NCBI GenBank assembly: GCA_025094145.1
Contig: JALLLS010000014.1
Coordinates: 248,001 to 312,000 of the forward strand
Direction of reading: 5' to 3'
Source of the DNA: Spinellus fusiger
Taxonomy: Eukaryota > Mucoromycota > Mucoromycetes > Mucorales > Phycomycetaceae
DNA length: 64,000 nt
The notes below the pieces were generated by a model that saw only the letters and a list, made by a program, of their open reading frames with translations, did not search any database and was not told the DNA's origin. The position numbers and the translations under genes were made by a program. Positions 11,476-47,809 of this stretch are shown here, piece by piece. The number at the start of each line of letters is the position of its first letter. The stretch's first letter is position 1.

Positions 11476-14254
11476 TCAAGGCTATTAACAAGAGAGTAGG
11501 GATGAGAATGAAATGATTCGAGCACAATGAAAATATCCAGCAGGCCGGCAACAATCAAAGGGTGTTAATCAGAAAAAGGGAAAAATAAAAAAAGACAAGG
11601 AAAAGAGAAACCGGCAAGCCGTGAATAGAAATAGAAACAAAACAAAAAGGACCTTACAAAGATCAACTTTTGAAGTTTAAGTTAAAAAGAACGAAAAGAA
11701 CGAAAAGAGAGTGAAAAGAGAGTGAAAAGAAAGAGAAAGAGAGAAAGAGAGACTATTAGCAATGGTAACCAATAGGAATAGCTCTATTTAAATGTAAGAT
11801 GCGGCCTTTCAGTTATCTTCAGGGGGCCAAAATAAAGAGTAAAGAGGAGGCGAAATGTGCATGAGGTCATATTAGGATACCAAGACGCGAACGGGGGAGA
11901 AAGAGAGAAGGAAGGGGAGTGAGGGAGCAAATGACTAAACACGAGGATTGAAAAGACCATTTTAGTAACTGTCTCGATCAACCTTTAAGCTAGACTAAAG
12001 AAGAAAACCCGAGTCTATACCAAACCAGGCTTGATGTCTTCGATAACCAGAGCCTTGGTACAATGAATCATGATTGTGCTGTACATTAAACAAAAAACGT
12101 TTACAACAATTGTACCATTGATTCAATAGCCAAATTACTTGTGGCTATTCGTTACACAACAATGGATACTGTTGTATTTCCATTCATTAAAATCTAAACT
12201 ATAAACCTACTTATCGATCTACTTTTCTATATCGCTCATGATGATGTTCCTTTTGTTTAATGGGTATGGTATCTCTATAGAATTGAATATTCGTATCTAG
12301 TTCCTTAATAAGAAAACATGAGCATTTTAAGATAAGGAATATACCATTTTGAAATTTAAATGCTCAATGAAACATTCCAACTTTAACCAATCATTTTCAT
12401 ATATTTTACATATCCTTAAGTAAGATACCACTTATAATACACAGCTTATAATGAAGATGTCCTTATAAATTAAGGGGACGTTTATGAAAGTTAAAAAAAA
12501 CACCATCAAAGTGATTTGAAAGAGTTAGAAGGGAAGGAGAGGAAAAGGTAAAAGAACAAATGACTGGACAAATAGATGTAAAGGCTAGAATTGAGCTTAA
12601 GAAGAAAAAAAGATATGTTACTTAGGGGAAAGTCACAAAAATGAGAAAGAGAAAAAAAAGAGAGTTTTGAGATAAATGTTATCGATGAAGCATAGAAACT
12701 GTTTTCTGTATACTAAGAAAAGTAACTATCTTTTTTATGCATATTACCCCAGTCAAACAAACAAAAAATCTAGAAAGAGTATTATAGGAAATGTGTATTC
12801 TATGTATTAAAGATTGGTTTTATTGGCATTATTTTCCATGCATATAAAAAGAAATTCTTATGTACAAAGATAGGACGAGATATTAAAGTAGGAGCTGAAA
12901 CACTTTTTAGCTCATTGACATAAATGAATATAATAACATTCATTACTATTTTCATGTATGCCTCTTTCTTTCTATTATCCACTAGTCTTCTCTAGTATTT
13001 ACATAGCTTCTAGTATAGACTTATGAACATATCTTTGTCATCTTTACTTATTTGTTAGTTATGTTCTGAAATATTTACTTCTACTAGTATTGCTATTTTT
13101 GTTTTATGTTTGTCTGGTATACAGGGTACGTTCATTTACTATCAACAACTATAATAATAAATTTAAAGAGAGTATGGAATGCCTGTAGAATAATTCATAG
13201 AGAATAGAGTGCAATGGTTTATGAGGATGAGGATGAAAATATAGTTTATCAATGGGAGGATTGTATCTCTATTTATTATTTATTTATCAAAATTTACAAG
13301 TCATGATAAGAATCTATATCTTTTTGATGGTATTCTACAAGCCAAATACTATTCACGTACTTTTCTATCAGCTAATAACTGTCCAAGTACGTTTGGTATC
13401 AATAACAACTAGTTTCAATACGAATTTTGCCAATATATGTATTTAACTTTTGCTATTCTCCTTATTTATTTCTACTTTGTTTATTTTGCCCCTCTTTCTG
13501 TTTCAATATAGACTTCAAGTTTATTGATATAATTAATAGAACCATAGTGACCTTTTTTCTATATGAAAAAAAAGGACAACAAGAAATGTAACTTGTAGGG
13601 ATATTACTATACAAATAACCATCTTTATTATTAATCATCTGTAGGAGTTTACTATTAGTGTTTCATTTAAACACCACAATAAGTTTCAAAGATACATTGT
13701 TAATAAAGATCCTTGATTTCTCAAAATCCTATCATTTAATTGTCAAATTGTTATCTCACTTCTTTATGAATATAATATATGGAATTTTTGTAGGGCTTTA
13801 AATTATCAGTGGTAAAGAAAAGAGTATTTGAAAGACAAAATCATATTACCTAATATCAGTGGTTTAGTCCATCTTTGGCATCTCCGTTTAATATTGATAA
13901 TAAAGATAAAGGTAAAATACAAAGCAATCTTCCTACATTCTTGTACCAAAGCATCGTGTAACTATTTTTTTATTCATATAGAGGATATCTTCTGGGACAT
14001 TCCAAGTAGACCTAGATACATATAGACGGTTATAAATCATTATTTCACAGTGTCTGTAAAATAAAACCTTTGATTCATTCAATAAATTAGGAATTATATT
14101 TGATATAGCTTTATTTTACTTGATAAAGTTAATAAAGGTCTCTGCGGTTCAGTGAAAAATATAAATATAAAGGCTCAGGGCAGTATGTCCAAAATATTAA
14201 TGGCTCTGTCGGCATTTAAATTGCCTGTAGCTATACACATACTCCATACCTTTA
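11476..14254. other. 5' region of the zinc-finger gene, then AT-rich desert
   Basis: 11476-12000 is purine-rich (GAACGAAAA and GAGTGAAAAGA units near 11690-11750) and is the likely leader/promoter. From ~12000 to 14254 the base composition drops to strongly AT-rich, with only short non-convincing frames. No gene or RNA recognised; decayed repeats are likely but unidentifiable by eye. Confidence 0.5.
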
Positions 14255-15476
14255 CACACCAGGAGATTTTTCTGGCCTTTAAGCGGTGATATATCCTTCC
14301 TTTTACGTCACAATAAAAAAGTTCCCTTTTATAAAAAAATGATTAAAATCAAAAGGTTTGCAAGTATCTAAATTATTATTTCTTTTTGTGGATACCTCAA
14401 TATCAAATTGTACTATCAATAGAATATATTGTTTATGAATAAAATTGTTTATTGTAATAGTACAGATAATACCATATTATGACTATAGCTACTGCCCAAG
14501 TGCATTCCCTCATAGCAATAGAATCTATACCCTAAAAGCTTTGTGCTTTATCCTTGGGAGGTAGATAACTATGCTCAGGAGTATACTCTAGAGACCCTAG
14601 ATAGTACAGAAGACCACCTGAGACTGACTTGAAAGGAGTCTTTACTTGCCTAATAACAATACATTGAGTGTCTTGTGGAATACAATGAGATCAAGCCCAG
14701 ATGAAGACACTGCTTACCTTCTTATCTCAAGAATAGCCTTTGGTAGTGTCTAACACTTCTTTCTATTGTTTTTCTTTGTTAATAATAGCACGCTACCTTG
14801 CTTAGTTATGCTCATCTCAACAAGTGCTTAAATATTAAGTTGTATAGACAGTGTTGGAAATAACAAAAGGAGGGGATTATCAAAACAGATAATAGTTTTT
14901 CTTTCTCTATTCTGATGTATTACACTTTAACCTCTTCATTCCTACAATCAAGTCAAACAATTCACACTCTATTTGCCTTGGGCCTAAAGCCCAGTATTAG
15001 AAACAATACTTTGTAATCATTAAGCATCACTGTTAATACCAGTTACAATGAGATAATTGAGGTGATTATGGATATTGAGTCAATAAATGACTATAAAGTT
15101 CTCAACACAAGTAGTTTTTCTTCTCTTCTATGGACAATGACCACTAGAGTTAATTCTGTGTGAGTCCTATAATAAATATTTTCTTAAGCAGTGTTATGCT
15201 GCAAATACTGTGGGCTTATAGTTAACACATGTTAAACAATAAATTCAGTGACTGAGTTGTAATATTGGGGTGATTCTTGTTCTATTTCTTGTCTTTACAG
15301 CCAATTCTATACTTTTTAATTACAAAGTCAGTAGCCATTGCTAAAACAGGCAAGTAGAGTTTGAAATAGCTCATTTAGACAGCGAAAAAGCATTTTAAAA
15401 CACATTAGCCAATCATATGAATATTGCAATTTTATTTAAGATATTTCTTTATATATCCCAAAAATCTCCTGATGTG
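14255..15476 (+). mobile_element. 1222-bp TIR element, copy 1 (CACACCAGGAGA family)
   Basis: Bounded by terminal inverted repeats starting CACACCAGGAGATTTTT on the left and ending AAAAATCTCCTGATGTG on the right, with TA on each outer side (14253-14254, 15477-15478), as expected for TA-targeting Tc1/mariner-like transposition. The interior has no intact frame; short stretches look like decayed protein. A nearly identical, equally long copy lies inverted at 24480-25701. Confidence 0.8.
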
Positions 15477-18400
15477 TACCACTAAGACAACTCCATGTCG
15501 CACTGTTAACATCTTTTTTTTTTTTTAATATCAGTAATAATGAACACTGATCTATTCTATATTATATCATCAAATCCTTTTTTTTTATTACTACCTAATA
15601 GTTAGACCCTCAACTTATGTTACCCCACAATAGAACATCCTTCTTTGTGAATTCAGGTATTTATGAAACCTATAATTCTTAGTGAGAGAAGGTTGATTGA
15701 GTATATTAAAAAAAAGGTCAGCTAATAAAAAGGGCTACAGTTAGCAAAGATATTTAATCCTATTTTCACAAAGAATGGTTTTTGGTGAAAGGAGATTATC
15801 CTAGATCTCAGAGCTTTGTATCAAATTACTAAATAAGCTATTTAGTTTTAACTATGTGGCTTTACAGATATTAGCATGCTGTAGCACCAGCTATCAATGG
15901 TACCAATTGCAGAAATGTCCATGTTCAACATGTGAAACAACTAAGGGGTTGAGATATAATGATAATTTTGAAAAATAAAATAAAAACCGGAAGTTAAAAG
16001 ACGGATATGCTTTTAGAAATTACCATACATTTACTAAGTATTCGTGCTTATGGAAACAAAAATATACATTTACACCACTTTCAATTAAATGATAGCTTAC
16101 TCTAGATAGCACTTCTGTAAATAAAGTATAGCGTTTGCCCAATTGACAGTAATTTTTTATACTATAAGTAATCAAATGATATCAATTACTCTCAACAGAC
16201 AATAATATAGTGGTATGATCATTCTTAAATATCAAATCATAATAATATTGATAAATAGATTCTTATATTTGCAAACTATATTTTTTGATTACATTTTTTG
16301 TAATAATATAAAACAGGTACTAATAACTATTTTCTTTAGTAAACTCATATCCTTATTATTGTGTAAAACCAGTTGTATTAATTCCTTATGCTATTATCAG
16401 TTTTCATAAAGTTATACATTCATATAGTTTTCAGGTGTTCATTTCTACATTTATCATACAAATAGACTATACTGAGAGAGAAGATATGTCAAAACATATT
16501 AATATACGCGTTGTGTTTTAGATACAGCAATGGTTTCAACAATATGCTGCTCAGTACCTTCAAAAGCTCTGCTCCATTCTCTTGGTATTCCCTAAATGTA
16601 TATAGATATGATAGCTTGGGCTTTCTAGAGATGGCCTTTAAATATTTTACCATAAGCAAAAGGGGTACTTATTGGCTATAAGATGAATTTATTGCTAAGA
16701 TATTCAACAAAATGGTTAGAAAAATACTATAAAATTTAACTTCTGATTCTATTTCACGTTTACATAATTTTTAATTATCACCACATCAACTTATTAGCAA
16801 TAGCACTGGAATTTTTTGTACATTGAAATTGAATAGTAATTTTATTTATTAAATGTCTAGGGTCTTTCTATAAGGTTCATAGGGTGGTAGTAGTTTTAAT
16901 CCAGAGTATAAAAAGCTGAATAGGGGCGGAGTAAGGAACTAGACACTAAAAATAGGGTAGTGTTTTAGTCACTTCATAAAACAGTTTATCGGTGGAAATG
17001 TTATCCAGCTAATAAATTTTCTTTCATTTATTGATTTAAGGCCTGAAATATGAATATAGGAAGTCCGTAAATCTGGGCCATGCAAACATGAAGAATTCTA
17101 AACAGTTAAACTCTTTCAATACAGTTTATTTAATCTGTTTTCTATTCTCTCTCTCAAAATCAGTATAAGAAATTAATTATTTAGCCTATTATATTTATAA
17201 AAGAGCATCTCTCAATCATTATTTATTAAATTAGATTTATCTTATTTAAATAGAGGATAGTGGTCTTGTTAGCTTCAAAGGATTTTAATACTAAACATTG
17301 TAAAGTAATAGCATATTGGTTGCCCTTTCTAAATAATTAGAAATAAAGATTGTGCCTCTACTTTATAACAATGACACGTCAATATGCTAGTTATTGTGTA
17401 TCTTTATTAGTGAATAACTATCTTTTAATTATTATTTCATTATTTCATTATAAGTAGTATATTGTAAAAAATAAATAATATCAGCAACCCCTAGAATACA
17501 CCGACAAAGCTTTATTGGTGTCTGTTTTTTTTAAGGTAAATGAATAACAAACAAACAAAGAGATTTAAGGCAATATGTATGTGTAATAGAGGTACAAAAT
17601 AATGAATAGAAGTTGTTTGTGTTCAAGGTTTTAGTGTTTGGCAGTACCATTCTTGTTTTCCACTAAGGCTTTTAATCTCAAGCATATAATTTCAATAAAG
17701 TTATTAGTTATTTAAATGTTTGTCCGAGCTCAGTCTCCTTTACATAAAAAAATTTAAATATTTGTTTTTTCTCTAACACCCATAACTTTGGTTTAAGATT
17801 TTGAATATTACAGAGTACACATAAGACTTGTCTAAATTTAAAAGCAAATCACTGTAGCTTGAATATCTTCAATGCATTTAACGAGGTCAGTGATACGACT
17901 TTGTGAGAAATAATCTATCAATATGACTATACAGCTCTATTTTTTTTCATTTCTTAATTAGTTTATTAGTATATCATGGAGCATTCTTTAATTATAAATA
18001 TTACCAAAAAATACATTATATCTTAGAGCAAGATGCTTTTTTGACTCATCAATGTATTATGTATGATCTTTATTACTTATCAACACTTTCACTAGGGAAT
18101 GAACCCCGCATAATCATACTAATACCACTAAATTCAAATGGAGTTTGCATTATCATTTATTAGTAATACTTCACAGATTATTTACCATTAGTATATTATG
18201 TCTGCTATGGATACTATACAAGTATTTTTAAAATAATAATACGTCACTAGTTTAAGAATAACAATAAGTTTTTAATACATAAATTCTCGGGCTGTATTGT
18301 ATTTTTTTTTAAATAAAAAAAAGAATATAATATTTTGTACTTTATAAATTCTCTGGATTCTCTGGATTTTTTCATGTAGTTATTATGAATAAAAAATAAT

Positions 18401-19094: not shown

Positions 19095-20259
19095 CACACC
19101 AGGAGATTTTTCTGGCTCTTAAACAGTGACGCACTTACCCTGTTACGTCCATCCCAGAATCACACCTTTCATGTAACAATGATTAAAATCAAAAGGTTTA
19201 CAGATATCCAAATGTTTATGTCGATTAATCACTTGCCAGAGATAGAGATATCAATCATCCCAGTCAATAGAAACATAGACTACCTAAACGGGACCACACA
19301 ATAGAAGAAGGGTTAATAGCAAGGTGTATATTTAAGGGATGATACTCTATCAAGAGGGGGATTTCCATAGCTTTTATTAGTGGATGGTATCAATTAGAAA
19401 AGTATGAAAGAAGTGTGAAAGACCGATCAATAAATATCAGACTTTGTTTACTCTTTGAACTGTCTGGATTTCCTTTGGTTAAACCCAAAGACGACAAGTA
19501 AAATAAATTGTTTATGAATAAAATTGTTTATTATAATAACATAGCTAATACTATATTATTAATATAGCTATTGCCTTAGTACATTCACTCATAGCAATAG
19601 AATATACACCCTAAAAGTCTTGTGCTTTATCCTTGGGAGATAGATAACTATGCTCAGGAGTATACCCTAGAGACCCTAGACAGTATAGAAGACTACTTGG
19701 AACTGACTTGAAAGGAGTCTTTACTTGTCTAGTAAAAGTGCAATGAATGTCTTGTGGAATACAATGAGATCAAGCCCAGATGAAGACACTGCTTACCTTT
19801 TTGCCTCCAGAATAGAATTTGGCAGTATCTATCACTTATTTTTATTTTTATTTTTATTGTTTTGTTTGATTAGTATTAGTATGTTACCTTGCTCTGTTAT
19901 GCTCATCTTGACAAGTAATCAACTATTAAGTTGTATGTGCAGTATAGGAAATAGAAAGAAAGAAAAAGAGAGAGAACTAACAAAACAAATAATGATTCCT
20001 CTTTCTATATTCTGGTAATGTATACACTAGCCTCCACTCATAAAATTCACAAGTCAAATCTACAACTCAAACAGTTCACACTCTATTTGCTTTGGACCTA
20101 AAGGGCAGTATTAGAAATAATATATTGTTCTCATTAAGTACTACCGTTAATACCAGTTACAATGAGACAGTTGAAGTGATTATGAATATTGATTCAATGA
20201 ATATCTATACTGTTCTTAATATAAGTAAGTTTAGTTCTATTCTATGGACAATGACCACT
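19095..20259 (+). mobile_element. TIR element, related copy truncated on the right
   Basis: Begins with the same terminus CACACCAGGAGATTTTTCTGG as the 1222-bp element and shares internal landmarks with it (for example GATTAAAATCAAAAGGTTT and the block TTATCCTTGGGAG). It then stops at 20259-20273, where a LINE fragment is inserted. The right TIR is not seen beyond the later insertions. Left flank is TT rather than TA. Confidence 0.65.
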
Positions 20260-20273
20260 AGAGTTGATTCAGT

Positions 20274-24310: not shown

Positions 24311-24479
24311 TACTTTGAAAAATCGCTCTGAGCTTTAATAAAAAGAAGATAAAGCACATTTATTCCTATTTTGTTTCCGACGGTCTAAATAGACAATAAA
24401 TAGAGTATCCATGTTCATAAGTCTAATAAAGGCAAATACTTATCACAGCTCTATTATCACGTGTCTCTTAGTCAGTATA
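24311..24479. other. short AT-rich spacer
   Basis: Short stretch between two TA-flanked elements; nothing recognised. Confidence 0.4.
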
Positions 24480-25701
24480 CACACCAGGAGATTTTTGGGA
24501 TATATAAAGAAATATCTTAAATAAAATTGCAATATTCATATGATTGGCTAATGTGTTTTAAAATGCTTTTTCGCTGTCTAAATGAGCTATTTCAAACTCT
24601 ACTTGCCTGTTTTAGCAATGGCTACTGACTTTGTAATTAAAAAGTATAGAATTGGCTGTAAAGACAAGAAATAGAACAAGAATCACCCCAATATTACAAC
24701 TCAGTCACTGAATTTATTGTTTAACATGTGTTAACTATAAGCCCACAGTATTTGCAGCATAACACTGCTTAAGAAAATATTTATTATAGGACTCACACAG
24801 AATTAACTCTAGTGGTCATTGTCCATAGAAGAGAAGAAAAACTACTTGTGTTGAGAACTTTATAGTCATTTATTGACTCAATATCCATAATCACCTCAAT
24901 TATCTCATTGTAACTGGTATTAACAGTGATGCTTAATGATTACAAAGTATTGTTTCTAATACTGGGCTTTAGGCCCAAGGCAAATAGAGTGTGAATTGTT
25001 TGACTTGATTGTAGGAATGAAGAGGTTAAAGTGTAATACATCAGAATAGAGAAAGAAAAACTATTATCTGTTTTGATAATCCCCTCCTTTTGTTATTTCC
25101 AACACTGTCTATACAACTTAATATTTAAGCACTTGTTGAGATGAGCATAACTAAGCAAGGTAGCGTGCTATTATTAACAAAGAAAAACAATAGAAAGAAG
25201 TGTTAGACACTACCAAAGGCTATTCTTGAGATAAGAAGGTAAGCAGTGTCTTCATCTGGGCTTGATCTCATTGTATTCCACAAGACACTCAATGTATTGT
25301 TATTAGGCAAGTAAAGACTCCTTTCAAGTCAGTCTCAGGTGGTCTTCTGTACTATCTAGGGTCTCTAGAGTATACTCCTGAGCATAGTTATCTACCTCCC
25401 AAGGATAAAGCACAAAGCTTTTAGGGTATAGATTCTATTGCTATGAGGGAATGCACTTGGGCAGTAGCTATAGTCATAATATGGTATTATCTGTACTATT
25501 ACAATAAACAATTTTATTCATAAACAATATATTCTATTGATAGTACAATTTGATATTGAGGTATCCACAAAAAGAAATAATAATTTAGATACTTGCAAAC
25601 CTTTTGATTTTAATCATTTTTTTATAAAAGGGAACTTTTTTATTGTGACGTAAAAGGAAGGATATATCACCGCTTAAAGGCCAGAAAAATCTCCCGGTGT
25701 G
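24480..25701 (-). mobile_element. 1222-bp TIR element, copy 2 (inverted relative to copy 1)
   Basis: Reverse complement of the element at 14255-15476: same length, and near-identical wherever compared (for example both ends and the middle around 24880-25000 versus 14960-15080). TIRs CACACCAGGAGATTTTTGGG and CTCCCGGTGTG are flanked by TA (24478-24479, 25702-25703). It is inserted at the left edge of another family member, which continues at 25704. Confidence 0.85.
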
Positions 25702-26996
25702 TAGAGATATCAATCATCTTAGTCAATAGAAACATAGACTACCTAAACGGGACCACACAATAGAAGAAGGGTTAATAGCAAGGTGTATATTTAAGGGATG
25801 ATACTCTATCAAGAGGGGGATTTCCATAGCTTTTATTAGTGGATGGTATCAATTAGAAAAGTATGAAAGAAGTGTGAAAGACCGATCAATAAATATCAGA
25901 CTTTGTTTACTCTTTGAACTGTCTGGATTTCCTTTGGTTAAACCCAAAGACGACAAGTAAAATAAATTGTTTATGAATAAAATTGTTTATTATAATAACA
26001 TAGCTAATACTATATTATTAATATAGCTATTGCCTTAGTACATTCACTCATAGCAATAGAATATACACCCTAAAAGTCTTGTGCTTTATCCTTGGGAGAT
26101 AGATAACTATGCTCAGGAGTATACCCTAGAGACCCTAGACAGTATAGAAGACTACTTGGAACTGACTTGAAAGGAGTCTTTACTTGTCTAGTAAAAGTGC
26201 AATGAATGTCTTGTGGAATACAATGAGATCAAGCCCAGATGAAGACACTGCTTACCTTTTTGCCTCCAGAATAGAATTTGGCAGTATCTATCACTTATTT
26301 TTATTTTTATTTTTATTGTTTTGTTTGATTAGTATTAGTATGTTACCTTGCTCTGTTATGCTCATCTTGACAAGTAATCAACTATTAAGTTGTATGTGCA
26401 GTATAGGAAATAGAAAGAAAGAAAAAGAGAGAGAACTAACAAAACAAATAATGATTCCTCTTTCTATATTCTGGTAATGTATACACTAGCCTCCACTCAT
26501 AAAATTCACAAGTCAAATCTACAACTCAAACAGTTCACACTCTATTTGCTTTGGACCTAAAGGACAGTATTAGAAATAATATATTGTTCTCATTAAGTAC
26601 TACCGTTAATACCAGTTACAATGAGATAATTGAGGTGATTATGGATATTGAGTCAATAAATGACTATAAAGTTCTCAACACAAGTGAGTTTGGTTATATT
26701 TTATGAATAATGACCACTAGAGTTAATTCCGTGTGAGTCCTACAATAAATCTTTCTCAAGCAGTGTCATACTGCAAAAAGTATGGGCTTATGGATAGCAC
26801 ATGTTAAACATTAAATGCAGTGATTAAGTTGCAATGTCAGGTTTGCTTCTTCCTTTTATCCAACTTTATAGTGTTTAATTACACAGTCCATAGTCAATGC
26901 TAAGACAGACAGGCAGTGAAAAGGTTCTTTTCAAACACATTAGCCAACCAAAGAAATAATATGATTTCATTGTTCATGTATTTCCTTATATATCCC
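25702..26996 (+). mobile_element. TIR-element relative, both ends missing
   Basis: 25704-26625 is nearly identical to 19245-20166 (offset close to 6459; single differences such as GGGCAG/GGACAG at 20105/26565). From ~26625 it resembles the 3' half of the 1222-bp element (for example GAGATAATTGAGGTGATTAT). It stops at ATATATCCCAAAAAT without the final TIR bases. The left end is cut by the copy at 24480-25701. Confidence 0.7.
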
Positions 26997-37892: not shown

Positions 37893-39056
37893 TCATTTCT
37901 TCTGTATTTTCTTGAAGAATTTTGGAGGAACAGTACTCTCGTATATCGGTCTCTTCGATCTGCTTAAGGCATCTGCATTGATGTTCTGTATGCCCGGCAC
38001 ATGTTGGTAGTGGATTGTCAACCGGTAAGTGTTGCACAAATCCTGTATTTTGACTGCTAGACCCTGAAGTATTGGTGATGATGTTCCACCTGCCTTTGTC
38101 ACATACTTTAGTGCTGTGATGTTGTCTGTGAATATCCTTAATACTGTAGATTGTGGCTGTTTGGAATACCTCAAGATGACAAAGTATATTGTTTTGAGTT
38201 CCCTCACATTGATTGAGGTCTCTTGTTTCCTCTTGCTCCAGTATCCTGCTGTCTTGACTGGATTAAAGTAAACTCCCCATCATGTTTCTGATGCGTCCAC
38301 ATATATTGTGGCCGATGGTGTTGGAAACTGTAGCTGTTATATTGGTAAGCCATTCTTCTTTACTAACCATTCTTTTCACCACTGGATCTCCAAAATTGAG
38401 CATTCTGTTAGGTGGAAATCCTTGCCCCATCGGCTCTGGTTCTGGTGTAAGCTCCTGGACATATCTCTCTGTAGATATCGTATATGAAGAAGTGCTTCCC
38501 CAATGGCTGGTATTACTGAGGTCATCTTCCCTATGAGGCCTACTATCCACCGACATGATCTCTGTGTAGGAGCCTTGGCTTGGTGTAATCTATGTAACAG
38601 TTTTGTTATCTTAGTCTGAGGAAGTTTACTTTTCATCGTCTTGGTATTGAAAGAGAAGTCTAGGTACTCTTGGCATCTGTTGGGAATTATTTTGCCCTTT
38701 TCCTTGTTGATCATGAAGCCCAATGTTTCCAAGTGGTGTAAAACCTTGGCTACTACTGACTTCATCTTCTCTTCTGGATTCTCTAGAATGTAAATATCGT
38801 CGAGGTAATATACTAGATATATTCTCTTTGCTCTCAAAGGCTCTACTGCATATCTCATTAATTTCGAGAAAATCCTGGGTGCTACACTCAATCCAAAATC
38901 TAGGGTGTAACTGTATACTATTCCTCTGTTCTCAAAATTAATAAATATCTGAGAGTCCTTGTGTATTTTTAATAATACATATGTGTCTTTGAGGTCCAAT
39001 TTGCATATGTAATTGTTCTTTTCTATGATCTGCCTCAATGCTGGGACACCTTCCAT
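37893..39056 (-). pseudogene. DIRS reverse transcriptase and RNase H
   Basis: RT core 39056-38376: LKDTYVLLKIHKDSQIF, FGLSVAPRIFSKLM and LVYYLDDIYIL with the catalytic Y-x-D-D. RNase H region 38207-37893: LRIFTDNITALKYV (catalytic Asp) and HVPGIQNINADALSR (final Asp), the pattern of DIRS/Ngaro RNase H. The next frame on the left (37889-37533: LPTYWSIREDSFDQQ, LYMFPPWKLIPQ) is the usual connector before the recombinase. Frames are interrupted between 38376 and 38207. Confidence 0.85.
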
Positions 39057-40163: not shown

Positions 40164-40637
40164 ATTCAGTTTGGTGCAGATCTCTTTGAGTAACTATGAC
40201 CCTTGTACTCTTTGTTTTTGTTTCTGAATTTGGGTTGCTCTGACCCTCCATGTGACCTCTTCACGATAGCGTTGATTTACTCCTAGGTAAATGTGGGTCC
40301 AATTGCATTTTTATTTTCTGTTAATTGTTGATTAGTTTGATCGGCCCTATAGTTACTTCACGATGCATGGCTTAGAAAGATCTAGAGAAGAAAAGATATT
40401 TTTGATTAGTTTATATGAAAATAAAGCGCTGCTCAGAGAGATTATACCCCTTCTTCCTTCGCTTCGGCAGCTTTTTGATTTTTGATTGTCAGTAGAAATG
40501 TTTGATCTTCAGTAGACACATGACAAAACCAAAGACAAAAACAAAAACAAAAACAAAACAAAAACAAAAACAAAAACAAAACAAAAACAAAAACAAAACC
40601 TATAGTTCTAACAAAAACAAATTGATTAATTATAAAC

Positions 40638-40992
40638 TTATGTTTTTTCCATAGTCATACACTTTGTAAATAATCCTTGTGAGTGACGGATCCAACCTTG
40701 ACAGTCTTCAGGTGTAACTTTCTTGACAGTCTTTTCAACTCTGTCAGAAATCATTTCGTTCTTCCCAAAAGGTATATTACGTATCTCACCTTTAATTATT
40801 GACCAGCACCCTTCCATTGGATTCAAAAGAGTCGAGTAAGGCAGTAAAAAAGAGTGGTGTATGTCCATGGTCACGGATTGTTATGAGAACTTCCGGTGTA
40901 TTATGTATTGTGGCATTGTCCATAATAATAAACATATTACTCAATCCAAGCTTGTTCAAAACTGATGCCATTTCTACCATAAATAATAACAA
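40638..40992 (-). pseudogene. IS630/Tc1-type DDE transposase fragment (left arm)
   Basis: Two overlapping frames read SNMFIIMDNATIHNTPEV (second catalytic Asp) and LLPYSTLLNPMEGCWSIIKGE (last catalytic Glu), then CQGWIRHSQGLFTKC. A frameshift separates them and the N-terminal part is missing. An identical copy lies on the plus strand at 46698-47052. Confidence 0.8.
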
Positions 40993-41546
40993 GTATGATG
41001 AGTTAGATTAGGCATTCTGAGAACTCTTGGGATATCAAATTCATGTGTGTGCTTCTGTACATAAAATATATTTGTTGGTTTAGGCCAACTTAAGTTGTCG
41101 AGAACAATAAGCTAAATCGCCACTGCAGATTCTTGAAGCAATTTCTATCTTTATTACCTTCATGAGATATACGTTATGAATAAAGATCCTTAACGAATCA
41201 AATCAAATTATGGCTGCTCTATTATGATACATACAGTAAATACAGTACATACACAACACACGCAACACACGCAGTACGATAAAACTGCTGTTAGAATATG
41301 ACTTTTGGCTTTTCATTTTATTATAACTCTTAATTTTAAAAAACAACCTCTTAGTGAACTTTTATTTATTTTTATTTTTATCATATACATGGAATGATCT
41401 TTTAAAGACTACTTGTATTTATAATATATAAAGAAATAGATGGATTATCATTAAAAGATGTTCTTATGAAATGCATCTTTCAATGTTAAGGGTGACTTGT
41501 AGCGTTTGAACAAATTTTGAATTCCTCCTTCTCTATAACACCCATC

Positions 41547-42770
41547 CTATGAAAATTTTCCTGGTTCTTCCCGTAGCTTAATCACAAAATAACTGTCTGC
41601 AGTGATTACTTTTTCAATAGATGTGGTCGTCCCAGATTCATTCTCTTCATCTTCTTTAACCATTTTGATTTTCTTATTTGTATAATCGAAACCGCCTTCA
41701 GCATATCGCTTGATTTTTCTAAGAATGATATCAAGGTCTCTGCTCTTTTGAAATTCATCTACACATTTTGAATTTTTTTTTTGAAATTGATTGCTTGTGT
41801 TTTTCATCACATCCATTATATGTTGGTAGTTTTCCTCTTCCTTTGTTGTATATGGTTCAAATGATTTTGCAGCGATTTGGTATATATGCCTTAACTCAGG
41901 ATCTTCACTTTTTTCAAGACCAAATAAACATTTCTTCTGGTTGCAAAGGAAGTATGTTAATGCAACTATTGGCTTCATATTGTTTTCACGCATTACGTCT
42001 GCTGAGATACTATTGTTGGAAAACCCAAAAAACAATAGGTGTGTTTGTTTGAATCAAAGGATACATTTCTCAAGGATTCATTTTATGAATCTTGGTCTGC
42101 TTATATACATATTTTTTCTATGCTACAAAGGTCCAAGTTATACAGTAATAGCTTCTCAGTAAATTCAGGGATGTTTTTCCCTCCCTTGTCCTATATGTGT
42201 TTCAGGGGAGGAAAACCTTCACATTTACAACACTATCAAGGGAGTAAAATCGACAGGTTTTAGCCCAAAGGTATCTTTTGATAGTATAGTATGACTTGTT
42301 CTGTGATTGATTAAAATTATTTTCGATAAAAGCCTTGGACGAGAATCTTTGAATCACAAAGACCATTACTACAGCTTCTACTTTAGTTAGGTCGTGAATG
42401 TTTAAACAATATCGCGTCAAGCGTTTCAAAAACTGCATATCGACTTTTTGTTGGATCTCAACCAAAACTGGTGGTATGGCCGATGTGTATTTTCCTCCTG
42501 GTATTCAATAAACAACATTGCTTTCTCGGCCATCTTTGAACTCTTTTTTGACCTATATCATATGCAATACCATTCACTTCCCCATCTGGAGTTGAAAGAT
42601 CAAAAATATGTAAATATGATAAAGCAAATTAAAAACATACCTGTTATTTCATTGATACCTATTTCCTTGATTTCTGCCTCATCAAACAGCATCTTGCTCG
42701 ATAGATCAGTCCCAGGACATGTTGGAAGGGTAGTAAGGATAGGATCATCAACCGATTCTGTTACTACAAA
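41547..42770 (-). pseudogene. PD-(D/E)XK nuclease-like TE gene (left arm)
   Basis: Mirror image, base for base in its open frames, of the gene at 44920-46143; see that entry for the reading. It has the same stop and frameshift. Confidence 0.6.
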
Positions 42771-43195
42771 TTACTGTTAGTGATTTATTTTTTACTGTTT
42801 CAATAAGACGAATTTACTTGACATGGACAAAGATTTAAAGCACGATACAATAAAACACAACACTGACAAAATGAAAACGAGAGTATTTATATTCGCACGG
42901 GAAAAAATATTTGTGTGAAGGACAGCCTTTTCCTTTTGATTTGTACAGTTCAAAGTATTTTATCTTTATTTTTGGGTGTGGTTTGCTATTCGTCCATTGG
43001 GCATTTTAGCCACCCAATGAGAACTTGATGGAAAACTAAGAATAAACATATAAACACTTCAAATAAAAAAGTAGAAAAAATAAATGCAAGGAAAAAGAAA
43101 CAGAAGGATAAAAGTACATAAAACCTCGAAATGAGGGGAAAATGAAAAGAAATGGAAGGTGATGGCAAAATGATTACTTATCTTGATTCTATATA

Positions 43196-44538
43196 CAGTG
43201 GCTTGCGAAAATCTTAGGTATATTTTTCATTTCCCGATATGATTATTGTATGGAGAAATACTTATTCTCTGTCATAACAATATACATTAAACACATAGTA
43301 AAGACTTAAAAATTGGATGAAGTATAAAAAGGTCAATTGAATAATATATGCAAGTTTACTTGGTAAAAGCCCTCAATATTTGGTGTTGCTACTCTTTGTT
43401 TCTATAACAGCTTAATATCTTCAATGCATGCTGTTAATGAGGTTGTCTGTAGTGTCCTTGAGAATTTTCTCCTATTCATCCAACAACAGCACCTCCAAAT
43501 CTTAGAGACTAACTCTAGGTGAATTTTTTTTACGAATTATTCTATCAAGTTTCTCCCATCTATGATCTATGGAGTTTAGATCGGGGCTTTGTGAGGACCA
43601 CTCTACCATAGCAACAATTCTCTCTTGTGCCTTCCACATCCTGGACTCTTTACTCTTATGATAGTTAGCATTTTTTTCTTGAATAACATAATTCACTTAT
43701 GGATTCAGTGCCTTGAGTCGAGCCAGCTCAGGGCAGTAGATTTCTTTTAATATCTCAATATATCTTCTACTGTCTATACTGCCCTTCACAGACAACAGTC
43801 TTCCAACATCTTTACTAAAGAAAAAACCTCACACCATCAAACTACCGCCATCAAAATTCCTGGTAGGCTTGACATTATTTGGGAGAAGTCATTCCTTTTT
43901 TCTTTGTACCACTCTGATATGATTATTGGTTCTCATTAACTGATGCTATGACTCATCGGACCGAATGACTGTCTTCCAGTCTTCTTCTATTCAGTAAAGG
44001 TGGGTCTTAGCCCAAGCGAGTCTCAACTTTTTGTGTTTATTGGTGAGAGAAGGTTTCTCTTTAACTACTCTGTAAGAAAATAAGTAAGGCTTCATCATTT
44101 TTCTGAAAGTGTTCATGTACACTTGGGTGATCATCTGCTTGCAAATCTGATCCATTATGTGGAATAAATTCCTTTCCATTTCGCGTGAAATATCTCTTTT
44201 GTCCCTCTCATTAATAATGGGTTTACTCTTGGTGTATCTTTTAGCCTTGAGGCATCCAGTTTCTTTGTATCTCTACAATACGGGAAGTAGACTAATTGCT
44301 GACTTCAAACCCAGCAGAAATAGCAACATGGGTGGTACTATTCCCAGTGTCTTTGTAAGCAATGAGACAATATGTGAAGTCTTCAATATTTATTTTCCTG
44401 TTTCCAAGAGGTCTTTTGGTTTGTTCAATGATATTAGATGAGGTAGATATAAGGGTGGAAAAGCGATAAATGAATAATTTTTAATGGTGAAACTATGGCC
44501 TGAATTTGAGATGTCTCTTGTTTTATAAAAAACCACTG
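43196..44538 (-). mobile_element. Tc1/mariner-like element in the palindrome loop (1343 bp), defective
   Basis: Ends CAGTGG...CCACTG flanked by TA (43194-43195, 44539-44540). The minus strand carries pieces of a Tc1 transposase: KMMKPYLFSYRVVKEKPSLTN (44179-43991), and IQEKNANYH, then VEWSSQSPDLNSIDHRWEKL (43696-43502), where the last catalytic Glu is replaced by Asp. Several stops. Confidence 0.8.
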
Positions 44539-44919
44539 TACAAATAAAATTTCCCTCATTTCGAGGTTTTATGTACTTTTATCCTTCTGTTTCTTTTTCC
44601 TTGCATTTATTTTTTCTACTTTTTTATTTGAAGTGTTTATATGTTTATTCTTAGTTTTCCATCAAGTTCTCATTGGGTGGCTAAAATGCCCAATGGACGA
44701 ATAGCAAACCACACCCAAAAATAAAGATAAAATACTTTGAACTGTACAAATCAAAAGGAAAAGGCTGTCCTTCACACAAATATTTTTTCCCGTGCGAATA
44801 TAAATACTCTCGTTTTCATTTTGTCAGTGTTGTGTTTTATTGTATCGTGCTTTAAATCTTTGTCCATGTCAAGTAAATTCGTCTTATTGAAACAGTAAAA
44901 AATAAATCACTAACAGTAA

Positions 44920-46143
44920 TTTGTAGTAACAGAATCGGTTGATGATCCTATCCTTACTACCCTTCCAACATGTCCTGGGACTGATCTATCGAGCAAGATG
45001 CTGTTTGATGAGGCAGAAATCAAGGAAATAGGTATCAATGAAATAACAGGTATGTTTTTAATTTGCTTTATCATATTTACATATTTTTGATCTTTCAACT
45101 CCAGATGGGGAAGTGAATGGTATTGCATATGATATAGGTCAAAAAAGAGTTCAAAGATGGCCGAGAAAGCAATGTTGTTTATTGAATACCAGGAGGAAAA
45201 TACACATCGGCCATACCACCAGTTTTGGTTGAGATCCAACAAAAAGTCGATATGCAGTTTTTGAAACGCTTGACGCGATATTGTTTAAACATTCACGACC
45301 TAACTAAAGTAGAAGCTGTAGTAATGGTCTTTGTGATTCAAAGATTCTCGTCCAAGGCTTTTATCGAAAATAATTTTAATCAATCACAGAACAAGTCATA
45401 CTATACTATCAAAAGATACCTTTGGGCTAAAACCTGTCGATTTTACTCCCTTGATAGTGTTGTAAATGTGAAGGTTTTCCTCCCCTGAAACACATATAGG
45501 ACAAGGGAGGGAAAAACATCCCTGAATTTACTGAGAAGCTATTACTGTATAACTTGGACCTTTGTAGCATAGAAAAAATATGTATATAAGCAGACCAAGA
45601 TTCATAAAATGAATCCTTGAGAAATGTATCCTTTGATTCAAACAAACACACCTATTGTTTTTTGGGTTTTCCAACAATAGTATCTCAGCAGACGTAATGC
45701 GTGAAAACAATATGAAGCCAATAGTTGCATTAACATACTTCCTTTGCAACCAGAAGAAATGTTTATTTGGTCTTGAAAAAAGTGAAGATCCTGAGTTAAG
45801 GCATATATACCAAATCGCTGCAAAATCATTTGAACCATATACAACAAAGGAAGAGGAAAACTACCAACATATAATGGATGTGATGAAAAACACAAGCAAT
45901 CAATTTCAAAAAAAAAATTCAAAATGTGTAGATGAATTTCAAAAGAGCAGAGACCTTGATATCATTCTTAGAAAAATCAAGCGATATGCTGAAGGCGGTT
46001 TCGATTATACAAATAAGAAAATCAAAATGGTTAAAGAAGATGAAGAGAATGAATCTGGGACGACCACATCTATTGAAAAAGTAATCACTGCAGACAGTTA
46101 TTTTGTGATTAAGCTACGGGAAGAACCAGGAAAATTTTCATAG
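44920..46143 (+). pseudogene. PD-(D/E)XK nuclease-like TE gene (right arm)
   Basis: Pieces in order: ESVDDPILTTLPTCPGTDLS up to NEIT, a probable 55-bp intron (45051-45105), DGEVNGIAYDIGQ, then after a shift FKDGRESNVVY with one TGA stop. Then PPVLVEIQQKVDMQFLKRLT, TRYCLNIHDLTKVEAVVMVF, LWAKTCRFYS and, in 45655-46143, a helical Lys/Glu-rich C-terminus (IVALTYFLCNQKKCLFGLEK; DLDIILRKIKRYAEGG). The order Asp...Val-Glu-Ile-Gln-x-Lys inside a strand-strand-helix context fits a PD-(D/E)XK nuclease fold that I recognise as multi-copy in Mucoromycota genomes. Substrate unknown. It precedes the transposase fragment on the same strand. Confidence 0.6.
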
Positions 46144-46697
46144 GATGGGTGTTATAGAGAAGGAGGAATTCAAAATTTGTTCAAACGCTACAAGTCACCC
46201 TTAACATTGAAAGATGCATTTCATAAGAACATCTTTTAATGATAATCCATCTATTTCTTTATATATTATAAATACAAGTAGTCTTTAAAAGATCATTCCA
46301 TGTATATGATAAAAATAAAAATAAATAAAAGTTCACTAAGAGGTTGTTTTTTAAAATTAAGAGTTATAATAAAATGAAAAGCCAAAAGTCATATTCTAAC
46401 AGCAGTTTTATCGTACTGCGTGTGTTGCGTGTGTTGTGTATGTACTGTATTTACTGTATGTATCATAATAGAGCAGCCATAATTTGATTTGATTCGTTAA
46501 GGATCTTTATTCATAACGTATATCTCATGAAGGTAATAAAGATAGAAATTGCTTCAAGAATCTGCAGTGGCGATTTAGCTTATTGTTCTCGACAACTTAA
46601 GTTGGCCTAAACCAACAAATATATTTTATGTACAGAAGCACACACATGAATTTGATATCCCAAGAGTTCTCAGAATGCCTAATCTAACTCATCATAC

Positions 46698-47052
46698 TTG
46701 TTATTATTTATGGTAGAAATGGCATCAGTTTTGAACAAGCTTGGATTGAGTAATATGTTTATTATTATGGACAATGCCACAATACATAATACACCGGAAG
46801 TTCTCATAACAATCCGTGACCATGGACATACACCACTCTTTTTTACTGCCTTACTCGACTCTTTTGAATCCAATGGAAGGGTGCTGGTCAATAATTAAAG
46901 GTGAGATACGTAATATACCTTTTGGGAAGAACGAAATGATTTCTGACAGAGTTGAAAAGACTGTCAAGAAAGTTACACCTGAAGACTGTCAAGGTTGGAT
47001 CCGTCACTCACAAGGATTATTTACAAAGTGTATGACTATGGAAAAAACATAA
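46698..47052 (+). pseudogene. IS630/Tc1-type DDE transposase fragment (right arm)
   Basis: Identical mirror copy of 40638-40992: MDNATIHNTPEV and LLNPMEGCWSIIKGE in two frames, ending at the (GTTTTT)n tract. Confidence 0.8.
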
Positions 47053-47091
47053 GTTTATAATTAATCAATTTGTTTTTGTTAGAACTATAGG

Positions 47092-47165
47092 TTTTGTTTT
47101 TGTTTTTGTTTTTGTTTTTGTTTTTGTTTTTGTTTTTGTTTTTGTTTTTGTCTTTGTCTTTGTCT
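47092..47165 (+). repeat. (GTTTTT)n microsatellite
   Basis: Ten or more GTTTTT units grading into GTCTTT; the mirror tract at 40535-40605 has interruptions (CAAAAC units). Confidence 0.9.
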
Positions 47166-47252
47166 TTGGTTTTGTCATGTGTCTACTGAAGATCAAACAT
47201 TTCTACTGACAATCAAAAATCAAAAAGTTGCCGAAGCGAAGAAAGAAGGGGT

Positions 47253-47809
47253 ATTTGCCCGCCCTTGGTATAAACGTCTTTTGGGGTAAATTATCGAAAG
47301 AACCCACCTAAGATATCATTGAGAAAGGAAAAAAAAAGGAAGTAGAATAAGTAAACTTGGCCTGGATGATCTAGAGAAGAGAAGTTATTTTATTTTATAT
47401 GAAAATAAAGCGTAGCTCAGAGAGCATATACCATTTCTTCTTCCTTCGCTTCGGCAACTTCTTGATTGTTAAAACTCACTGAATGTCTTTTTTTCTTTTT
47501 GGTATTGAAAAATCTTGAGAAATGAACATCGTATGTTTGTTTATATTTTTAAGCTATATAGCTAAATAACCTGTATATATTGAAAATTATAATAAGGATA
47601 AACGTCTATTCTTTTGAAAAATAACTGTATCTAAATAGAATATAAAATGACCAAAAAAATCCGGATATTTTAAATGTAGATTTTCTTTTCTATCTGTATT
47701 TCACTTAATAGTACTAACCTTCATGAATTCCTTAAATATAGACATAAAGTCTCTGATAAATAAAGAGAATAGTGTTTATAATAAATAACAGTGGTTTTTA
47801 TTACAAGGC
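47253..47809. other. AT-rich flank with direct repeat of the DIRS-side border
   Basis: 47370-47465 repeats, in the same orientation, the sequence left of the palindrome (40380-40475): GATCTAGAGAAG, ATGAAAATAAAGCG, GCTCAGAGAG and CTTCCTTCGCTTCGGCA occur in order in both. The remainder is AT-rich without a gene. Confidence 0.55.

Follow-up and report, generated by a model that had tools for sequence, protein, structure and literature searches.

A spaced palindrome around a decayed Tc1/mariner-like element in Spinellus fusiger and its probable origin by inverted repair copying

Arms and core of the palindrome

The window analysed here is a 64,000-nucleotide stretch of a Spinellus fusiger contig (C46). 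BLAST of the window against itself revealed an inverted pair of arms at 40444-43141 and, on the minus strand, 44550-47254, with 99.59% identity over 2,706 aligned columns, two mismatches and five gap openings. The arms lie about 1,408 bp apart, and the spacer is single-copy. Such likeness cannot be due to chance, and the palindrome is confirmed as genuine in the assembly. It is located mid-contig (C46:288444-295254 of 576642); the mirror arm does not reach the contig end, and to the right of the palindrome the sequence turns into something different. The first-pass annotation had placed the two arms back to back. The mirrored arms are present in the assembly, but the single-copy spacer of ~1.41 kb had been missed, and the arms do not adjoin because a Tc1-type core sits between them. 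The open reading frames of both arms do mirror each other with identical translations, as it had reported.

Global alignment of the arms showed zero differences over the 2,538 bp of 40600-43137. The outermost 37 bp contain two substitutions (40456/47242 and 40470/47228), and the innermost edge contains one (43138/44552), at the third base. Within an (ACAAAA)n microsatellite (40523..40598, + strand), unequal in length and sequence, the arms differ by two A/G substitutions and 8 inserted bases, the latter corresponding to about one 6-bp unit plus two A's. Of 2,618 eligible bp, the outermost 37 thus hold both substitutions that lie outside the microsatellite and the inner edge; a post hoc test gives this a probability of about 2e-4 under a uniform distribution.

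The palindrome axis is occupied by a Tc1/mariner-like element with long terminal inverted repeats (TIRs) at 42946..44744, whose transposase remains are on the minus strand; domain matches, family copies and a TA directly on both sides, read as TA/CAGT in the sequence, identify it. Its left TIR (42946..43140, +) forms the inner end of the left arm and its right TIR (44550..44744, −) that of the right arm, as defined by self-BLAST, alignment and the termini of relatives, which start at the equivalent of 42944. The TIRs are 195 bp or longer and differ at 1 of 195 positions. Family comparison delimits a single-copy core (43193..44540, −) that makes up most of the spacer. The element carries an HTH_Tnp_Tc3_2 match just above threshold (32.1 bits, cut-off 31.5) and a DDE_3 match under its cut-off (E 4e-5). 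A genome search with the core listed 1,112 candidates; of the 40 that were scored, 39 were places other than this one. The centre of the palindrome is a decayed Tc1/mariner-like element of a large family.

The longest frame of the window copy, in any frame, is 96 aa, the shortest among 15 copies compared (105-369 aa in the others, with one member keeping a 369-aa frame). An inverted TIR pair was seen at 7 of 17 other family sites compared; the pairs span about 0.13-0.7 kb, with 83-94.5% identity in 6 of the 7. The remaining copy, on contig C165, carries TIRs of 710 bp at 99.86% around a broken core whose longest frame is 126 aa, and its flank is not duplicated, so high TIR identity alone is no proof of a duplication event. 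In all six other copies with both ends in view, the inverted repeat ends within 11 bp of the element end. Since the inverted repeat of these measurable copies stops there, the 2.46 kb of flank would have been added at the present locus. The window copy is the only flank-duplicating one seen, most sites having been viewed with little flank.

The duplicated flank and its outer limits

The duplicated flank, X, is the 2.46 kb outside the central element (40481..42945, +), which recurs inverted as X' (44745..47217, −), as delimited by self-BLAST, arm alignment and genome search. It holds three kinds of sequence. A frame-broken IS630/DDE_3 transposase relic (left copy 40638..40992, −) was scored on the mirror ORFs at 46698-47052, which matched Pfam DDE_3 with E-values of 6e-4 and 0.034 and NCBIfam IS630 with 1.5e-5 and 0.085, the best scores of both being under the curated cut-offs. 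The DDE transposase fragment predicted for each arm is supported by these matches (IS630 1.5e-5, DDE_3 6e-4, both sub-threshold). The remains of a Mucorales hypothetical-protein gene (left copy 41547..42465, −) were recognised by protein matches; its mirror ORF matched seven proteins including the window's own, the named ones being from Mucor saturninus, Pilaira anomala, Rhizopus microsporus, Benjaminiella poitrasii and Phycomyces nitens. This gene is split by a high-copy, MITE-like repeat of ~230 bp (left copy 42006..42243, unstranded). The genome search, in which 40 of 175 candidates were scored, placed this repeat at 38 other sites at 85-94%. The broken gene and the frame-broken relic are in the same state in both arms.

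The arm gene had been labelled as a PD-(D/E)XK nuclease. No nuclease match was obtained in profile searches of Pfam (window ORFs and P0003-P0005), NCBIfam (P0004-P0005) or PDB sequences, and an AlphaFold model of the arm protein from five sequences was too poor for use (mean pLDDT 36), so that this label found no support. Nor do the arms form the proposed unit of nuclease plus transposase: their coding content is flanking debris, and a distinct Tc1-like element lies at the mirror axis.

The palindrome is bounded on each side by a proper terminus of the same repeat family, a 3'-type end on the left and, mirroring it, a 5'-type end on the right. On the right, a complete TIR repeat of ~250 bp (47218..47467, +), recognised by its TIRs and by full-length relatives on C138, C153 and C135 (three; 72-81%), begins with the 5' terminus (47218-47254) that limits the right arm. 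On the left, the arm is limited by a flanking repeat terminus (40444..40480, +), which matches 47218-47254 in inverted orientation at 35 of 37 bp and lines up with the two ends of further members of the family. Two bases of these outer 37 bp are common to both arms and absent in the compared relatives. When the outer ends were examined for a target-site duplication, they were found to coincide with the termini of the neighbouring repeats. With proper repeat termini at both borders, there is no ground for reading the right border at 47254 as a broken repeat and the left arm as the original.

A foldback-type element or macro-transposon built of two arms, each with nuclease and transposase, would account for long, near-identical arms that each carry a DDE relic and for outer limits formed by termini of one repeat family. 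The arm genes are decayed, however, one being split by another repeat, and the outer termini face the wrong way for macro-transposon ends, as X is situated outside both outer repeats. The genome search for single-arm and double-arm copies proposed in the first-pass annotation also speaks against it: with X minus the ~230-bp repeat, the two candidate places in the 38-Mb genome were the two arms themselves. No family of single or double arms was thus seen, and the dimeric transposition product that had been suggested fails on the same search. Both are rejected for lack of any further arm copy. The search instead shows a local inverted duplication, the outcome which the first-pass annotation had itself named as refuting its reading, and we regard a macro-transposon as extremely improbable.

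The inverted copy and the assembly

X' may exist in the assembly only, produced by a chimeric read folded back on itself, by a chimera from whole-genome amplification or by a misjoin via the TIR and the outer repeat end. Amplification can make artificial palindromes in long reads (PMC6218980), and fold-back artefacts are a general long-read occurrence (PMC12870357). Two other near-perfect spaced palindromes of the same assembly extend to contig ends, on C154 (777202-793397/794215-810443, arms of 16.2 kb, 98.97%, spacer 817) and on C185 (3-1926/2673-4595, 99.84%, spacer 746). Moreover, the borders of X' are both within repeats, which are sites of misjoins, and the single A's in the microsatellite difference could be consensus errors.

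Against this, the window palindrome is mid-contig and runs into different sequence on the right, so an artefact would need two faults. The arms also differ, by 8 bases and two A/G changes in the microsatellite and at two sites in the outer 37 bp, and for a long-read misjoin, homologous stretches of 195 and 37 bp would be short. Contig ends were searched for a near-identical opposite-strand partner on their own contig, using both ends of 10 larger contigs of known length chosen non-randomly (of C1, the left end) and 40 scored candidates per search, an arrangement that detects only palindromes reaching the terminal ~190 bp. None of the 19 scored ends had such a partner, which lessens the worry about artefacts without removing it. 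Overall, we consider an artefact unlikely.

Origin of the palindrome and related cases

At this locus the inner limit of the arms falls at a TIR and the outer limit at related repeat termini, and X was found nowhere else. Such an anatomy is probably best explained by fold-back or ectopic inverted repair copying that was primed by the TIR and completed through the homology of the outer repeat ends, a reading to which the hairpin-resolution by-product suggested in the first-pass annotation comes close. The starting point would be an old, decayed Tc1-like element with TIRs of 195 bp or longer, surrounded by many repeats. If a double-strand break occurred or a fork collapsed to one side of it, a single strand ending in one TIR would be left, which could anneal to the other, inverted TIR, either by folding back in cis or by annealing to or invading the sister. 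The annealed TIR would then prime outward synthesis, and the 2.46 kb of X would be copied backwards until copying stopped at a repeat terminus also present, mirrored, on the broken side. A join closed by homology of about 37 bp would give the order repeat end, X, TIR, core, TIR', X', repeat. Either arm may have been the template.

Several details are in line with such repair copying. The window copy has the shortest longest frame of those compared, yet its TIRs are near-identical. TIR pairs exist in other family copies that have no flank duplication, so the inverted homology at the spacer edge presumably predates the event, and this copy would have had its TIR pair beforehand. The lone inner mismatch, at the third base from the edge, lies where a primer remnant would lie. 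Substitutions in the outermost 37 bp are expected if this stretch is a homology join of two repeat copies and not a plain copy; the outer repeat termini would then have done the joining. On the other side, the two bases shared by both arms fit uninterrupted copying up to 40444 as well as a join. On the best reading, the duplication would be recent or recently homogenised.

Homogenisation could also have acted on an older palindrome of the same origin, its arms being kept alike by arm-to-arm gene conversion. Human Y palindromes are reportedly a precedent, and the edges of converting palindromes may escape conversion. This would suit the 2,538 interior bp without difference beside a differing outer edge and microsatellite, and the near-identical TIRs of the C165 copy hint at inverted-repeat conversion in the same genome. 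However, a recent event closed by edge homology gives the same pattern, and arms with broken genes are under no evident selection for likeness. We hold long-term conversion to be unlikely.

A variant of repair copying with a named trigger is faulty repair of the gap left when the Tc1-like element was excised, in which a transposase break would be followed by synthesis on the sister and a switch to the opposite TIR, making the palindrome a transposition by-product. The element ends are placed symmetrically around the axis and have a TA on either side, and a family member with a 369-aa frame exists, so transposase action in trans is possible. TIR elements acquire nearby sequence by template switching during gap filling (PMC8277862). 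In that study, most single-copy cases are independent of transposition, which counts against excision as the trigger; the window copy is also badly decayed, and no excision footprint is present in the sequence. We regard an excision trigger as unlikely.

Like the fold-back inversions of yeast (PMC7467729, PMC10622511) and human (PMC3907307), the locus has neighbouring DNA copied in inverted orientation, a spacer present once and inverted homology at the edge of that spacer; PMC3907307 describes the last two for human inverted duplications. Those inversions close at a homologous repeat, and the locus has related repeat termini at both outer limits, which would have served for joining. Unlike them, the window case is interstitial, only 2.46 kb long and presumably seeded by Tc1-like TIRs; it was seen in a Mucorales genome, and its duplication event was not itself observed. 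With Tc1/mariner-like long-TIR elements the centre shares the flanking TA, a Tc3-type HTH, DDE_3 remains and many copies. It differs from the six other measurable family copies in having a mirrored flank, besides being decayed. Pack-TIR and gap-filling duplications (PMC8277862) likewise copy nearby DNA via a template switch at a TIR element, but Pack-TIR copies DNA into the element, whereas the window copy lies outside it in mirror orientation. Galileo (PMC4168063) likewise has inverted repeats of variable length that are able to take in non-TIR sequence; its extended TIRs belong to the element, whereas the window arm reaches beyond the element termini and was found once. Among the top-ranked literature matches on palindromes or inverted duplications in Mucorales or Mucoromycota, none reported such a structure, which is weak evidence.

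The locus looks like a known kind of repair accident rather than a novel mobile element. Provided that it is real, nature here offers a fresh product of fold-back-type repair in a Mucorales fungus, almost free of mutations, in which both switch points can be read: the inner one at a transposon TIR, the outer one at a repeat terminus. It suggests that decayed long-TIR transposons too can cause inverted duplications. A bolder generalisation, which we think improbable, is that long palindromes arise here again and again from transposon ends in inverted pairs and are capped by the next transposon terminus outward. Transposons would then set the axis and length of inverted duplications in Spinellus fusiger, and the palindromes on C154, C185 and C180 would be further cases; on C154, the inner ends of the arms lie at the border of a dispersed repeat that surrounds a tRNA gene. 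Until reads back them, palindromes of this assembly should not be counted as biological.

Spaced palindrome and duplicated flank

The palindrome in the window is a spaced one, with arms at 40444-43141 and 44550-47254 (99.59% identity over 2,706 aligned columns) and a spacer of about 1,408 bp. The arm alignment showed that the differences were confined to the edges and one microsatellite. Two substitutions fall within 37 bp of the outer ends. The (ACAAAA)n microsatellite (~40523-40598) accounts for two A/G substitutions and 8 inserted bases, and a further substitution lies at the inner edge, third base in. The arms do not differ at all across 40600-43137, which sets a 95% upper bound of 0.12% on their divergence (0 differences in 2,538 bp). 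The palindrome is best read as a local inverted duplication, either recent or recently homogenised.

The duplicated flank, X (40481-42945), and its inverted copy, X' (44745-47217), both contain a frame-broken IS630/DDE_3 relic and pieces of a gene. The named relatives of these pieces are hypothetical proteins, and relatives of the X gene were found in Mucor saturninus, Pilaira anomala, Rhizopus microsporus, Benjaminiella poitrasii and Phycomyces nitens. By these homologues, the source fungus belongs in or close to the Mucorales. The same decay is common to both arms, as expected of copied debris. Inside the X gene lies a ~230-bp repeat; of its 175 candidate places in the genome 40 were scored, and 38 of these are further copies at 85-94%. 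When X was queried without this repeat, each of two genome searches returned the two arms alone (2 of 2 candidates). No family of single- or double-arm copies was thus seen in the genome for the foldback-type element considered in the first-pass annotation. The palindrome looks like a known kind of event with a clean anatomy, and not like a new mobile element.

The Tc1-like element at the axis

The axis of the palindrome is a decayed Tc1-like transposon with long terminal inverted repeats (TIRs). The minus strand of the spacer carries remains of a Tc1-type transposase (HTH_Tnp_Tc3_2 at 32.1 bits, just over the 31.5-bit cut-off, and DDE_3 at E 4e-5, which falls short of its cut-off), and the element core was found at 39 further places at 75-78% (40 scored of 1,112 candidates). 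Because the outer terminal sequence of the relatives starts at the equivalent of 42944, where direct reading of the window gave TA then CAGT, mirrored by ACTG and TA at 44741-44746, the element was delimited to 42946-44744. The TIRs of the element occupy the innermost 195 bp of each arm, with 1 mismatch between them.

Seventeen other family sites were examined as loci. An inverted TIR pair of at least 100 bp was detected in 7 (identities 91.7, 90.6, 88.2, 85.6, 83.2, 94.5 and 99.86%), and none of this length in the remaining 10. The inverted repeat ended within 11 bp of the terminus in 6 of the 7 pairs, namely those showing both termini; the seventh was cut by the end of its locus, so that both termini were not in view. 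Among the copies measured, most of them compared with a limited flank of ~1.5 kb past the core, the inverted repeat extended beyond the element (2.46 kb) in the window copy only. The copy on contig C165 (C165:175281-178239, L055:1782-4740) has 710-bp TIRs of 99.86% identity, a broken core and no duplicated flank. Its TIRs were apparently homogenised without flank duplication. This copy counts against the proposed event, since it shows that near-identity of TIRs can arise or persist in the absence of such a duplication.

At one of the 10 sites without a TIR pair, on contig C180, an inverted repeat of another kind lies next to the core. This mid-contig repeat (C180:84998-86914; L059, L043) has 750-bp arms of 99.87% identity and a 417-bp spacer, and stops 6 bp short of the core of that other Tc1-like family copy, for which no left terminal repeat was seen.

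Outer borders and route of duplication

On the right, the border coincides with the 5' end of a complete ~250-bp repeat (47218-47467), whose full-length relatives at 72-81% lie on contigs C138, C153 and C135 (three). On the left, it is a 3'-type end of a repeat of this kind. Over the 37 bp common to both borders, 35 positions match and two differ, and two bases common to both borders are not in the compared relatives. We infer that this patchwork reflects annealing and mismatch repair over the 37 bp: the copied strand would anneal to an existing repeat end, and mismatches would be repaired either way. Two late mutations might instead account for the differences, but their landing in the outer 37 bp by chance is unlikely (p about 2e-4, post hoc). 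Judged by the borders, either arm may have been the template.

The duplication was most likely seeded by the Tc1-like TIRs and closed at the repeat terminus. Fold-back inversions have inverted homology at the spacer edge and a repeat at the far end, and the window palindrome has both. In human inverted duplications, 21 of 21 sequenced junctions are reported to contain single-copy spacers, which range from 766 to 70,466 bp, and three of these junctions have inverted Alu or LINE copies (~300 bp) at the spacer edge (PMC3907307). In yeast without Sae2 or Mre11, breaks near inverted repeats are described as giving inverted duplications via fold-back priming (PMC10622511), and further homology-mediated rearrangements are reported to accompany fold-back products almost always (PMC7467729). 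With a 1-kb spacer, intermolecular annealing was reported to be favoured over cis folding (PMC6103520); therefore, either route could apply to the window.

Assembly artefact and other palindromes

We consider it rather unlikely that the palindrome is an assembly or read artefact. Near-perfect spaced palindromes reaching contig ends were met on contigs C154 and C185, among loci taken for other reasons, and structures of this appearance could be left in an assembly by chimeric fold-back reads or by amplification chimeras (cf. the accounts in PMC6218980 and PMC12870357). Unlike them, the window palindrome is mid-contig with unrelated flanks. Its arms also differ from each other, although consensus error may explain some of the microsatellite difference. 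In a contig-end test on 10 chosen contigs, no partner was found for the 19 ends scored out of 20.

The C154 palindrome (C154:777202-810443; L062, L058, L054, L060, L061) has 16.2-kb arms of 98.97% identity and reaches the contig end, and its 817-bp spacer contains a tRNA-Leu(CAG) gene. On the inner side, its arms stop at the border of a dispersed repeat also present in L018 and L019. A MAFFT alignment of the arms contained 40 gaps and 130 substitutions; 125 of the substitutions fell within a single 1-kb bin. The C185 palindrome (C185:3-4595; L063) reaches the contig start, with 1.92-kb arms (99.84%) and a 746-bp spacer; the arms contain a repeat also present on C159 (L024).

Other elements were observed in the window. 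Reverse-transcriptase remains (RVT_1, E 7e-15) lie a short way left of the palindrome on the minus strand (38376-39056). A 1,233-bp element is present as two copies in opposite orientation (14246-15478 and 24478-25710; 99.7% identical), the ends of both resembling ACACACCAGGAGATTTTT, and related stretches (80-98%) lie around 19243-20273 and 25702-26835.
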